Origin: a virus
DNA: 20,372 nt
Direction: 5' to 3' (one strand)
IMG/VR virus record: IMGVR_UViG_3300000269_000002
Coordinates: 1 to 20,372 of that record
The position numbers and the translations under genes are program-made. This document shows positions 2,938-7,174 of this stretch, one piece after another (position 1 is the first letter of the stretch; every line of letters begins with the position of its first letter). Under the pieces are notes generated by a model that saw nothing but the letters and a program-made list of their open reading frames with translations, had not been told where the DNA came from and did not search any database.

Positions 2938-3188
2938 CGCTTGAAGAACTGCGAATGTTGCCACTTACATACACGTTCGGCTATTCAGCAGACGATCATG
3001 CGGTTCGGCGGTATGTGAATCAAGAACACGGCATCGCCAAACAAGTTTATACCCCCAGAAACCCTGAGACGTTGGAGTGGGGCAATGGCGAAATGTCGTT
3101 CATGCTTCTTGCGACCAAAGAAGAATTTGACACCGTGGAAGAACTTCACGCGGCCATGAAAAAAGCACAGGAGGGAAGTAATGACTGA
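2934..3188 (+). CDS. Small phage protein, unknown (MTLEELRMLPLTYTFGY)
   Basis: The start is ATG 2934, overlapping the TGA of the upstream gene and preceded by AAGGAGG, an excellent ribosome-binding site; the frame is open further upstream, but that part is a shadow of the previous gene. The 84-residue product has an N-terminal helix, a central segment with several aromatics (TYTFGYSADD, RRYVNQEHG) and a C-terminal helix (TVEELHAAMKKAQEG). I do not recognise a family or function. It overlaps the next gene by eight bases. Confidence 0.7.
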   Translation: MTLEELRMLPLTYTFGYSADDHAVRRYVNQEHGIAKQVYTPRNPETLEWGNGEMSFMLLATKEEFDTVEELHAAMKKAQEGSND

Positions 3189-3348
3189 TGAACAGGTTAT
3201 TGAAATTGCAATTCAAGGACCCCCCACAAAATTATTGTCAGACAGCCAACTAGACAAATTGATAATTTCAGAGTGGGGGAAAGACGCTTGCCTTCCAGCT
3301 ATGCGGAGGTTTGCTAGGATTGTGGAGAAGGCCGTAAAAAATAATTGA
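3181..3348 (+). CDS. Small phage protein: LSDxQ/RIVE module alone
   Basis: A 55-residue product (MTDEQVIEIAIQGPPTKLL...RFARIVEKAVKNN) starts at ATG 3181 behind GGAGGGAAG. Its second half (LLSDSQLDKLI then RRFARIVEKAV) parallels residues about 132-160 of the fusion protein at 330-959 (PLSDDQIDALI then RDLVRIVEAAHG). In many phage proteins this helix follows a PVAW...LYTHP unit, and here it stands alone behind a short MTDEQ leader. It is the last gene before the terminator at 3358. The function is unknown. Confidence 0.65.
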   Translation: MTDEQVIEIAIQGPPTKLLSDSQLDKLIISEWGKDACLPAMRRFARIVEKAVKNN

Positions 3349-3357
3349 CTAAACCAC

Positions 3358-3377
3358 GGGGCGAAAGCCCCTTTTTT
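3358..3377 (+). terminator. Rho-independent terminator after the small-gene cassette
   Basis: A perfect GGGGC stem, GAAA tetraloop and GCCCC stem are followed by six T. It lies ten bases after the last small gene and separates the cassette from the packaging and head genes. Confidence 0.9.
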
Positions 3378-3399
3378 ATTGCTCAAAAATCAGTTATCG

Positions 3400-3439
3400 T
3401 AATACCTCAGACCCGCACTGTTTGCGGAGAAAGGTATTA
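3400..3439 (+). promoter_or_regulatory. Hairpin over the terS ribosome-binding site
   Basis: Two nested inverted repeats fold the last 40 bases before the terS ATG (3441). The outer stem is TAATACCT (3400-3407) with AGGTATTA (3432-3439). The inner stem is CCGCA (3413-3417) with TGCGG (3423-3427) around the loop CTGTT. The Shine-Dalgarno candidates GGAG (3426-3429) and AAGG (3431-3434) are partly inside the stems, so folding would hinder ribosome binding. It could regulate terS translation, or be a binding site for terminase or a repressor. Confidence 0.5.
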
Positions 3440-3440
3440 A

Positions 3441-3854
3441 ATGAGTAAGCCACACGCTCAAAAAGAAGAAATTATCAAAAAAGTGCTTGAAGGCATGTCA
3501 AATCACGGGCTTAGTTGTTTTAAGTCTTGCAAAAAAGCAGGTATTCCGAACAGTACGTTTTTACTTTGGGTTAGTGAGGATAAAAGCCTTGCTGACAAGT
3601 ACATGCGTGCGCGTGATGATTTAATAGAGCGAATTGCAAACGACGCTATTGAAATTGCAGACGAGCCAGTAGGGACGACAGACTCAGGAGCTACGGATTC
3701 TGGAGCAGTTCAAAAACAAAGGCTCCAGGTCGACACTCGAAAATGGCTGCTTGCAAAACTTGCACCAAGAAAATACGGTGACAAAATAGAGGTATCTGGG
3801 AACCCAGAAAGCCCTTTAGTTCAAAGAATAGAGCGAGTGATTGTTAAGCCGTGA
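3441..3854 (+). CDS. terS: Terminase small subunit
   Basis: The small terminase subunit recognises phage DNA and presents it to the large subunit for packaging. The 137-residue product starts with a helix-turn-helix-like region (about residues 8-45: EEIIKKVLEGMSNHGLSCFK, then KKAGIPNSTFLLWV), followed by a helical segment (ADKYMRARDDLIERIANDAIEIAD), an acidic/Ser linker with a TDSGA duplication, and RLQVDTRKWLLAKLAPRKYGDK, a C-terminal signature seen in many phage small terminases. Its stop overlaps the GTG start of terL, so the two are translationally coupled. It is the first gene after the cassette terminator, so a late promoter is expected just upstream, although I cannot point to a good -35/-10 pair. 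Confidence 0.88.
   Translation: MSKPHAQKEEIIKKVLEGMSNHGLSCFKSCKKAGIPNSTFLLWVSEDKSLADKYMRARDDLIERIANDAIEIADEPVGTTDSGATDSGAVQKQRLQVDTRKWLLAKLAPRKYGDKIEVSGNPESPLVQRIERVIVKP
3678..3707 (+). repeat. Tandem TDSGA codon repeat in terS
   Basis: Two adjacent copies of five codons encode TDSGA-TDSGA. Four of the five codon pairs differ only at the third position, so the peptide repeat is kept while the DNA has diverged. It sits in the linker between the DNA-binding and C-terminal parts. Confidence 0.6.
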
Positions 3855-5074
3855 CAACACTTCAGCTTAAAACGCCAGAGTGGGCTATCCCCTTGCTTGA
3901 GCCAAGCCGTTACAAGGGCGCATGGGGAGGTAGGGGCTCCGGGAAATCACATTTGTTCGCTGAGTTGATGATCGAGGCGCACATTATGGATGCCAAGCGT
4001 AGAAGCGTGTGCGTTCGTGAAATTCAAAAGTCTCTGAATCAGTCGGTAAAGCGCCTGCTGGAAACCAAGATAGAGCAAATGAACGCCGGTGCATATTTTG
4101 AGGTTCAGGAATCCGTTATTAAGTCACGCAAGGGTGACGGGATGATTATCTTCCAAGGTATGCAAAACCATACGGCAGATTCTATCAAGTCACTGGAGGG
4201 ATATGATTGCGCATGGGTTGAAGAAGCGCAAAGTTTAAGCCAGCGCTCATTAGATTTGCTTCGCCCGACAATCCGAAAGCCGAATTCCGAATTGTGGTTC
4301 ACTTGGAACCCGAACAAAGCGACTGACCCGGTAGATGCGCTATTAAAGGGCGATACAAGGCCACCTGAAGCCGTGGTAATAGAAGTTAATTATATGGATA
4401 ACCCGTGGCTTCCAGAGGTTCTACGGAACGAAATGGAGTACGACAAGCGCCGAGACCCAGACAAGTACGCCCACGTTTGGCTTGGCCAGTACAGCAAGAA
4501 CAGCAATTCGCGGGTTTTCCATAATTGGCGAATAGAGGAATTCGAGGCACCAGCAGATGTAACGCATAGGCTCGGGGCAGACTGGGGGTTTTCAGTAGAT
4601 CCGACTGTTTTAGTTCGTTGTCATGTTATTGGCAGAACTTTATACATCGACCATGAAGTGTATCGAGTTGGTTGTGAAATCATGGACACACCAGACTTGT
4701 TTTTTACTGTTCCTGATTCTGAAAAGTGGCCAATGGTGGCTGACTCTGCAAGGCCAGAAACAATATCGCACATGAGGCGAAATGGGTTCCCCAAGATTAT
4801 GCCAGCGGTAAAGGGTCCGAAGTCATTAGAGGAAGGCATAGAGTTTTTAAAAACCTACGATATTGTTGTGCATCCAAGGTGTAAACATACAATTGACGAA
4901 TTGACGCTTTACAGTTATAAGATCGACAAACTAACAGGCAATATACTTCCACTTCTGGATGACAAGAAAAACCACACAATTGACGCATTAAGATATGCTT
5001 GTGAGGGTGTCAGAAGGGCAGTAACAAATAAGCCTAAAATATTCGTGCCGTTGCCAACAAGTAACAAATGGTAG
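3851..5074 (+). CDS. terL: Terminase large subunit (ATPase/nuclease)
   Basis: This 407-residue protein is the packaging motor: it hydrolyses ATP to drive DNA into the procapsid and cuts the concatemer. The ATPase half shows a Walker A loop GGRGSGKS (residues 26-33), a Walker B with catalytic Glu, CAWVEEAQ (120-127), and the coupling motif ELWFTWNP (147-154). The nuclease half shows the acidic residues expected of an RNase H-like fold: D244 in GADWGF, D298 in VADSA and D378 in HTIDALRY. Length and motifs fit the PBSX/Terminase_3-type group. The start is GTG 3851, overlapping the terS stop (GTGA); no better start is available, and coupling to terS explains the weak ribosome-binding site. The gene is complete. 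Confidence 0.95.
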   Translation: MTTLQLKTPEWAIPLLEPSRYKGAWGGRGSGKSHLFAELMIEAHIMDAKRRSVCVREIQKSLNQSVKRLLETKIEQMNAGAYFEVQESVIKSRKGDGMIIFQGMQNHTADSIKSLEGYDCAWVEEAQSLSQRSLDLLRPTIRKPNSELWFTWNPNKATDPVDALLKGDTRPPEAVVIEVNYMDNPWLPEVLRNEMEYDKRRDPDKYAHVWLGQYSKNSNSRVFHNWRIEEFEAPADVTHRLGADWGFSVDPTVLVRCHVIGRTLYIDHEVYRVGCEIMDTPDLFFTVPDSEKWPMVADSARPETISHMRRNGFPKIMPAVKGPKSLEEGIEFLKTYDIVVHPRCKHTIDELTLYSYKIDKLTGNILPLLDDKKNHTIDALRYACEGVRRAVTNKPKIFVPLPTSNKW

Positions 5075-5098
5075 AGAATAAAGAAACTAAAGGGAATT

Positions 5099-7174
5099 AT
5101 GTCTCGATTAACTAAAGAACAGCATTTTAATAATGTATTAGAAACGGCTCGCAATGAGTTCGATTCTATTCAATCCGCTATTAAAAATGAGCGGATGCAA
5201 TGCTCGGAAGATCGTAGATTTTATTCTATTGCTGGAGCACAGTGGGAAGGGCCATTAGGCGAGCAATTTGAAAATAAGCCAAAGCTTGAAGTAAATAAAA
5301 TCCATCTGGCGGTTATTCGCATTATTAACGAATACAGAAATAACCGCATTACTGTTGATTTTGTAAGCAAGGATGGGAAAAAAGCTGACTCACTCGCAGA
5401 TACCTGCGACGGTCTTTATCGTGCCGATGAGCAAGATAGCACGGCAGAAGAAGCCTACGACAATGCTTTCGAGGAAGCGGTGGCTGGTGGGTTTGGCGCT
5501 TGGCGACTTCGTGCTGAATACGAAGACGAAGAAGACGAGGAAGATGAGCGTCAGAGAATTAGGATTGAGCCTATATTCGATGCGGACTCGTCGGTTTTCT
5601 TTGATTTAGACGCAAAGCGCCAAGACAAATCAGACGCCAAAAGATGCTTTGTCATTTCCTCCATGAGCCGTGACGCTTATCGTGACGAATACGGAGATGA
5701 CCCGAGCGATTGGCCTAAAACAATCACGCATACCGAGTTTGATTGGTACACCCCAAATGTTGTCTATATTGCTGAGTATTACCGCGTGGAAGAAGTTTCG
5801 GAAACCATCAGGGTATTTGAGACTATTGATGGTGAGGAAGAAAAGTATTCCGAGTCTGATTTTGAGGCTGACGAAAACCTTGAGCAATCACTTGCTGCAA
5901 TTGGCACAAAAGAAATCAGGAGAAAGAAAGTAAAGCGCCGCAAGGTGCACAAGTATATTCTTTCTGGTGGCAAGGTTCTGGAGGATTGCGGATACATTGC
6001 AGGCAAGAACATCCCAATCGTTCCTGTTTACGGTAAACGCTGGTTCGTAGATAACATTGAGCGCTGCATGGGGCACGTTCGTTTGGCCAAGGATTCACAA
6101 CGCCTAAAGAATATGCAACTCTCAAAACTTGCAGAGATTGCGGCATTCAGCAGCATGGACAAGCCCATTTTTACCCCCGAACAAATGGCTGGGCATCAGG
6201 TAATGTGGGCAGAGGATAACGTGAAAAACTATCCTTATTTGCTCGCAAACCCAATGACCGACATGAACGGTCAGCCGGTAGCTAATGGCCCGATTGGGAT
6301 GAAGACAGCGCCTAACATTCCCCCTGCTATGGTGACATTGATGCAGGTTACCGAGCAGGATATGGCTGACGTTCTAGGCCGCCCTGAAAACGCCGAAAAG
6401 ATGGTTAGCAATATCTCCGGTAAGGCCGTGGAGATGATTCAGCAGCGCTTGGATATGCAAACTTTCATCTATATGTCCAACATGGCGAAAGCGATTAAAC
6501 GCTCCGGAGAAATTTGGCTCAGCATGGCCAAAGATATTTTTGTGGAAGAAGGCAGAAATATAAAAGCGATTGGCAAGCAAGGCGAGGTCTCAACCGTTGA
6601 ATTGATGCGGCCTGTGATCGGTGAAACTGGCGAGACAGAATTTGAAAACGATTTGTCCCAAGCCAATTTTGATATCGCCGTGGATGCTGGACCGTCAAGC
6701 AGCAGCAAGAAAGCGGCAACGGTTCGCGCAATCACGGGAATGATGACCATTACACAAGACCCAGAGACAATGCAGGTTCTTGGCTCAATGGCCATGATGA
6801 ACATGGAAGGCGAGGGGGTTTCCGAGGTTCGTGACTTCTTCCGTAAGCGCTTGGTAAACATGGGTGCAGTTAAGCCAACAGAGGAAGAAATGCAGGCCAT
6901 GCAAGCACAGGCCGCACAAGCCCAGCCAGACCCGCAGACACAGTACATGACGGCAGCAGCAAACCAAGCCGATGCAGAGGCATCCAAGGCGCGTGCTGAC
7001 ACTGTATTGACCGTTGCCAAGGCTGAAGAAACGCAGGCAAAGACTTTGAAGACAATGGCTGAAATTTCAGAGGTTGATCGCAAGCAAGCGTTTGAAGATT
7101 TGCAATTGCTTGGCAGTGCTTTTCAAGGCCAGCAACCACAGGAACAACAACCTGGCACACCGCCATTGGTTTAA
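5099..7174 (+). CDS. Portal protein, P22 gp1-like
   Basis: The portal forms the dodecameric ring at one capsid vertex through which DNA enters and leaves. The 691-residue length is close to the P22 portal, far above the 400-500 residues of siphovirus portals. Visible features are an N-terminal region LEVNKIHLAVIRIINEYRNNRITVDFV, GGFGAWRLRAEYEDEEDEEDE with an acidic patch at about 141-150, the stem/wing segment with VYGKRWFVDNIERCMGHVRLAKDSQRLKNMQLSK, ADVLGRPENAEKMVSNISGKAVEMIQQR, and a long Gln/Ala-rich helical C-terminus (about 590-680) that suits the helical barrel of P22-type portals. ATG 5099 follows AAGGGA. It lies directly after terL and before the scaffold, as in P22. Confidence 0.92.
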   Translation: MSRLTKEQHFNNVLETARNEFDSIQSAIKNERMQCSEDRRFYSIAGAQWEGPLGEQFENKPKLEVNKIHLAVIRIINEYRNNRITVDFVSKDGKKADSLADTCDGLYRADEQDSTAEEAYDNAFEEAVAGGFGAWRLRAEYEDEEDEEDERQRIRIEPIFDADSSVFFDLDAKRQDKSDAKRCFVISSMSRDAYRDEYGDDPSDWPKTITHTEFDWYTPNVVYIAEYYRVEEVSETIRVFETIDGEEEKYSESDFEADENLEQSLAAIGTKEIRRKKVKRRKVHKYILSGGKVLEDCGYIAGKNIPIVPVYGKRWFVDNIERCMGHVRLAKDSQRLKNMQLSKLAEIAAFSSMDKPIFTPEQMAGHQVMWAEDNVKNYPYLLANPMTDMNGQPVANGPIGMKTAPNIPPAMVTLMQVTEQDMADVLGRPENAEKMVSNISGKAVEMIQQRLDMQTFIYMSNMAKAIKRSGEIWLSMAKDIFVEEGRNIKAIGKQGEVSTVELMRPVIGETGETEFENDLSQANFDIAVDAGPSSSSKKAATVRAITGMMTITQDPETMQVLGSMAMMNMEGEGVSEVRDFFRKRLVNMGAVKPTEEEMQAMQAQAAQAQPDPQTQYMTAAANQADAEASKARADTVLTVAKAEETQAKTLKTMAEISEVDRKQAFEDLQLLGSAFQGQQPQEQQPGTPPLV

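Follow-up and report, generated by a model that had tools for sequence, protein, structure and literature searches.

A predicted Shine-Dalgarno hairpin within a leader block that precedes two different first genes of a phage packaging operon

We analyzed a 20,372-nucleotide stretch of viral DNA (the window) from a phage whose portal, coat, and stabilization proteins mark it as P22-like. The features listed in this paragraph lie on the plus strand. The last small gene upstream of the leader (3181-3348) was read from the sequence; its 55 codons plus stop put it below the 60-aa limit of the open reading frame list. The intergenic gap that follows (approximately 3349-3440) holds an intrinsic terminator, GGGGC-GAAA-GCCCC-TTTTTT, at 3358-3377 (stem-loop 3358-3371 plus a T-run), starting 10 nt 3′ of the small gene's end at 3348. 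Next come a spacer (3378-3399), which contains a weak promoter-like match discussed below, and the hairpin that is the subject of this study (3400-3439). The first gene beyond the gap is terS (3441-3854), which profile matches assign to PHROG 1482 and Pfam Sf6_terminase. The terL gene (3851-5074; Terminase_3 and Terminase_3C, also by profile matches) begins with a GTG at 3851 that overlaps the terS stop codon (3852-3854). Read directly from the sequence, the in-frame codon ahead of the terS ATG is TAA (3438-3440).

An Rfam scan at gathering thresholds gave no matches in the window or in ten related loci. Put/nut antitermination RNAs are sites located upstream of the terminator being overridden, and the hairpin does not fit this class because it sits 3′ of the terminator at 3358-3377, not 5′ of it, although it might act on terminators farther along. 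No known late antiterminator was found among the proteins scanned (10 with PHROGs, 4 with Pfam) from G001, the 36-kb contig of locus L002.

The initial annotation had described two nested perfect stems that end one base before the terS ATG and include part of the Shine-Dalgarno (SD) sequence, and our analysis bears this out. The outer stem has 8 bp and pairs TAATACCT at 3400-3407 with AGGTATTA at 3432-3439 (5′ arm UAAUACCU, 3′ arm AGGUAUUA). The inner stem has 5 bp and pairs CCGCA at 3413-3417 with TGCGG at 3423-3427. Base 3440 is unpaired and the ATG occupies 3441-3443. The SD region, GGAGAAAGG (3426-3434), contains GGAG at 3426-3429 and AAGG at 3431-3434, both of which are partly paired in the predicted fold (mean unpaired 0.44 and 0.27, respectively). 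The outer 5′ arm includes ACCU, which is complementary to AGGU of the SD region.

The nested two-stem structure is the predicted minimum-energy fold, with a hairpin energy of about -14.5 kcal/mol and a z-score of -2 to -3 that varies with the segment chosen. When compared with shuffled sequences, as had been proposed for this element, a 71-nt RNA folded at -17.3 kcal/mol (z -2.00; 7 of 200 shuffles at least equal), and a 58-nt segment containing the hairpin folded at -14.8 kcal/mol (z -3.00; 0/200 shuffles as good). The terS start gave the lowest z-score among 29 start regions in the window (-2.11, with a runner-up of -1.65). We did not accept the inverted repeat alone as proof, because the window contains 14 perfect inverted repeats (arms of at least 8, gaps of 3-30) and 8 shuffles contain a mean of 9.25. 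Masking of the SD by predicted local structure is also common in the window: on a fixed measure over positions -14 to -6, 12 of the 28 other starts have an SD region less accessible than that of terS (0.43).

We found that the terminator, spacer, and hairpin form an 85-nt block (3355-3439) that is present in five other viral contigs. A pattern that left both stems partly free matched exactly these five stretches in a search of viral contigs; among the matches listed for the simpler pattern TAATACCT..AGGTATTA, most were unrelated AT-rich repeats. The terminator is the same in all six contigs with the block (6/6), and comparison showed the spacer to be invariant except for C3398T in L086. Two copies, L199 (contig of L001) and L285 (contig of L002), precede terS, and this is the same terS as in the window. 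The other three, L279, L402 (contig of L086), and L403 (contig of L085), precede a DNA methyltransferase gene. A blastn comparison of 3341-3480 with the fetched loci gave a leader match that runs up to exactly 3439, including loci where the next gene is not terS. The hairpin abuts the methyltransferase ATG in L085, L279, and L086, and the last base of the outer 3′ arm is the first base of that ATG. In this context, the predicted fold reaches -15.9 kcal/mol in both L085 and L086 (z -2.98 and -2.84).

The L085 methyltransferase matches PHROG 498 and Pfam N6_N4_Mtase and has a ParB-like N-terminus (PHROG 620; the Pfam ParB_N match is below the cut-off). Beyond the methyltransferase, the terS family can be read in L085 and L086, L279 being too short. 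In both, the downstream terS belongs to PHROG 309, as opposed to PHROG 1482 in the window, and the two kinds of TerS have only a short C-terminal stretch in common. The sequence 5′ of the terminator in L086 also differs from that of the window. The initial annotation had tied the element to terS. The presence of the same block directly before the methyltransferase gene in three contigs contradicts this, and the element therefore goes with the first position of the operon and not with terS. Across 399 genomes of the family of G007, a leader search hit 3, where the aligned part was limited to query positions 6-47 (the terminator part), and a TerS search gave matches in 8/399. The L085 and L086 methyltransferases are 88% identical in their N-terminal parts but diverge in places over the second half, suggestive of a swapped target-recognition part. 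The terL gene of L086 (1954-3069) carries an intein in its Walker A motif (GGRG / SGKSH; Pfam Intein_splicing, E 7.7e-13).

We compared the copies of the block for evidence of covariation. Three substitutions separate the window from L085 and L279: C3414T and G3426A, which together make up the inner-stem pair 3414-3426, and T3422A in the loop. The pair is C-G in four of the sequences (window, L001, L002, and L086) but U-A in the other two (L085 and L279; inner arms CUGCA and UGCAG). Within the block, L086 differs from the window only by C3398T, an unpaired position. All 18 pairs of the terminator and hairpin (13 in the hairpin) hold in 3/3 distinct rows; one pair shows a two-sided change, and slid structures show none. 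The covariation check called for by the initial annotation yielded one compensatory pair, but a shuffle control reached its score in 173/500 cases; with only three distinct rows, shuffling cannot give significance. A post hoc calculation gave a probability of 0.0036 that three random substitutions in the 85-nt block would produce a Watson-Crick double change in the hairpin. Only two distinct hairpin sequences occur among the block copies found. We regard this compensatory change as suggestive; it is a single event and not proof. The window, L001, and L002 show no substitutions from 3320 to 3541, compared with 109 and 124 differences overall in 3556 positions. We did not count the identity of these leaders as selection because the silent sites of terS are identical too.

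Directly established are the hairpin, its stability, the position of the block before two different genes, and one compensatory change. With about even confidence, we propose that an mRNA hairpin sequesters the SD and so restrains or times expression of whichever gene comes first downstream of the terminator. The anti-SD-like ACCU of the 5′ arm would pair with AGGU in the SD region of the first gene, and RNA that reads through the terminator would carry the whole hairpin. Ribosome entry would be slowed, leaving the product of the first gene low or delayed. Terminator, spacer, and hairpin would act as a single leader unit, retained at the start of the packaging operon when its first gene is replaced; this gene is terS in the window and a DNA methyltransferase in the sister phages. 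Where the methyltransferase follows, the stem would also include the first base of the AUG. We infer that the hairpin would lower translation in vivo for reasons of dosage or timing. In the initial annotation, binding of a protein or small RNA could melt the structure, and control would extend to terL through its coupling to terS.

The block could instead be a passive recombination joint, a shared boundary for gene swaps in which pairing is preserved by recent ancestry only. Conserved boundary sequences mark gene junctions in mosaic (lambdoid) phages, and the block resembles them as a short sequence retained while genes on both sides are exchanged. The flanking genes differ upstream in L086 and downstream in L085, L279, and L086, and the match stops at 3439. 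The lack of substitutions in 3320-3541, silent sites included, points to recent exchange. Unlike lambdoid boundary sequences, the block includes a terminator as well as an SD hairpin in which one compensatory change has occurred. All three substitutions between the window and L085 fall in the inner hairpin, where two compensate each other, and other leaders at the same place also have SD hairpins, as described below. We consider a passive joint unlikely.

SD-covering hairpins do recur at this position in relatives, with other sequences. Among terS relatives collected by protein similarity alone, we identified a different hairpin, AACCUU-UCGCG-RAGGUU, that lies over the SD just 5′ of the ATG (AACCTTTCGCGRAGGTT type). 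Its sequence form is CGCAGAA..AACCTTTCGCGRAGGTTA immediately before the ATG, and a change from U-A to U-G is tolerated in the stem (AAGG/GAGG). We extracted 41 distinct terS leaders from 57 of 80 terS-relative loci. Fourteen of the 41 have no open reading frame running in from upstream, and in 10 of these 14 the SD is unpaired at 0.41 or less; the same holds for 10 of the 27 leaders that do have such a frame. The 10 low-accessibility leaders without an upstream frame comprise two hairpin types from only two lineages. Compared with shuffles, the second type has no extra stability (z -1.59 to +0.13), and it is a feature of shared lineage. The terS of one carrier, L162 (a contig of a MAG assigned to Comamonadaceae), is 64% identical to that of the window and follows a terminator and a hairpin of the second type, which hints at hosts in the Comamonadaceae.

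The CGCAG..AACCTTTCGCGRAGGTTA element spans 27-29 nt and was found in 44 distinct contexts, 30 of them intergenic and the other 14 inside an open frame; this collection is biased, as most loci were fetched by sequence pattern. Intergenic copies precede terS genes of the window's kind, methyltransferases, and short genes known by their N-termini only. Carriers include part of L003-L027, L289, L309, L318, L321, L347, L348, L328, L367, and others. The element matches the 3′ end of the methyltransferase gene, at the codons for KPFAEV, and for this reason may be a remnant of lost methyltransferase genes that was kept as a leader. The proline codon of KPFAEV is CCT in 24/26 tails, compared with 207/849 of the remaining proline codons of those genes; these tails are related by descent.

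The behavior of the second hairpin type bears on a further alternative, that the nested palindromes are a DNA operator bound by a phage regulator of transcription into the packaging operon and that the RNA hairpin is only a by-product. Measured center to center, 10 bp separate the inner half-sites and 32 bp the outer arms, close to one and three helical turns, respectively. The DNA strand of the element also folds better than shuffles (z -3.42), the compensatory Watson-Crick change preserves the DNA dyad as well as the RNA stem, and weak PHROG matches point to a possible HTH-type regulator encoded upstream in G001. On the other hand, a fixed protein would be less expected to allow a half-site to be altered in both arms, before either gene the element includes the SD and stops exactly at the start codon, and the U-A to U-G change in relatives breaks the DNA palindrome but not the RNA stem. 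Weighing these points, an operator appears improbable.

A third kind of SD hairpin was observed directly before the methyltransferase start of related phages, with a stem of 3-6 bp and a conserved loop, ACCC-NNN-AGGA. It is carried by L486, L489, L491, L493, L512, L516, L530, L537, and L543, and further by L548, L552, L555, L556, L558, L560, L562, and L564. The loop motif occurs in 21 of the leaders surveyed (34 distinct leaders, 79/80 methyltransferase loci). Pairing was assessed with an arm-swapping test, because MAFFT shifted one hairpin class by a base. In this test, 9/11 distinct arm combinations pair at 4 or more positions, and 5000 arm shuffles gave a mean of 2.65 and a maximum of 7. 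Rfam gave no match in the five loci of this type that were scanned (L431, L452, L458, L468, and L470). This methyltransferase-leader hairpin clearly covaries and is possibly a new RNA motif.

Considering the three hairpins together, we offer a broader and speculative reading, which we consider unlikely. The freshwater phages of this group would use interchangeable translational-control leaders at one operon position, where three unrelated hairpins (the window, AACCTTTCGCGRAGGTT, and ACCC-NNN-AGGA types) bury the SD of the first gene, be it a DNA methyltransferase or terS. Methylation and packaging proteins would be held back until late, for example until a late transcript begins within the 5′ arm, and selection would act on the leader as a module whatever gene it controls.

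Relief of the window hairpin by a transcript that starts inside the 5′ arm would fit its geometry, as in T4 late genes. RNA starting at 3407-3412 is predicted to free AAGG, with the unpaired value rising from 0.27 to about 0.9. A T4-type timing switch would place a late promoter in the spacer and the RNA start in the 5′ arm, such that late transcripts are unmasked and read-through RNA is silent. The promoter-like match in the nearly invariant spacer, TTTTTA-16-TATCGT, has its -10 at 3395-3400, which would put the RNA start near 3407, and RNA from 3407 onward frees AAGG. The match is weak, however; because it scores only at the 99.0 percentile of plus-strand positions, one such site is expected often in a region of this size, and a consensus promoter scan found no site in the spacer region. 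This switch has a precedent in T4 (PMC2988022), and for the window we give it only a slim chance.

Pac sites in or near terS are known in P22-like phages. The suggestion that the element is a pac-like site recognized by TerS, or an RNA operator for TerS autoregulation, draws on that precedent and on the adjacency of terS, but it is disfavored to the point of being very improbable, because three contigs carry the block ahead of a methyltransferase gene and the terS of L085 and L086 lies 1.2 kb away and belongs to another PHROG family; the gene swap after the block speaks against both versions.

Terminase synthesis in P22-like phages is generally considered to be controlled at the level of transcription. 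Phage hairpins that sequester a ribosome-binding site (RBS) are already known as such. They occur in late genes and homing endonuclease genes, namely T4 soc, e, I-TevI, and segB and Aeh1 mobE (PMC2988022). The predicted SD-sequestering hairpin of the window resembles these in being a stable structure that pairs the SD just before the AUG, for phage genes that can lie on read-through RNA (PMC2988022). In the T4 and Aeh1 examples, late promoters have been mapped whose transcripts lack the 5′ arm, whereas the window has only the weak promoter-like match. The window leader further differs from them in following an intrinsic terminator and in its retention when another first gene is present. T4 gene 32 and gene 43 have autoregulatory RNA operators in which the gene's own product binds the leader (PMC3014915). 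Both cases share with the window a phage mRNA structure at or near the RBS, but the window-type leader precedes two unrelated proteins, which makes TerS autoregulation unlikely. The cabRNA of staphylococcal phages, which triggers CBASS, is likewise a structured RNA from the terminase region; it lies inside terS/terL, unlike the window hairpin, which is upstream of terS (PMC10686824).

In the open-access literature searched, we found neither a hairpin leader retained ahead of interchangeable first genes in a packaging operon nor a hairpin in a terS or methyltransferase leader. If SD sequestration by a retained leader is true, mosaic phages could exchange genes without losing the expression level of the operon position. 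The 40-nt hairpin provides a precise and testable target, and the covarying methyltransferase-leader hairpin, for which the scanned loci gave no Rfam match, may represent a new RNA motif.

We made two further observations. Several small upstream genes of the window share repeats at 1627-1660 and 2382-2415 (GATGAGTGAYGAACAAAA.CCTGTGGCGTGGATG) and at 58-75, 1646-1663, 2401-2418, and 2587-2604 (CCTGTGGCGTGG), as might be found in a family of related small proteins. In G001, positions 5052-5384 (in the orientation of the window) contain a 110-aa open reading frame in which nearly all of the sequence is made up of G, Y, D, and N repeats.
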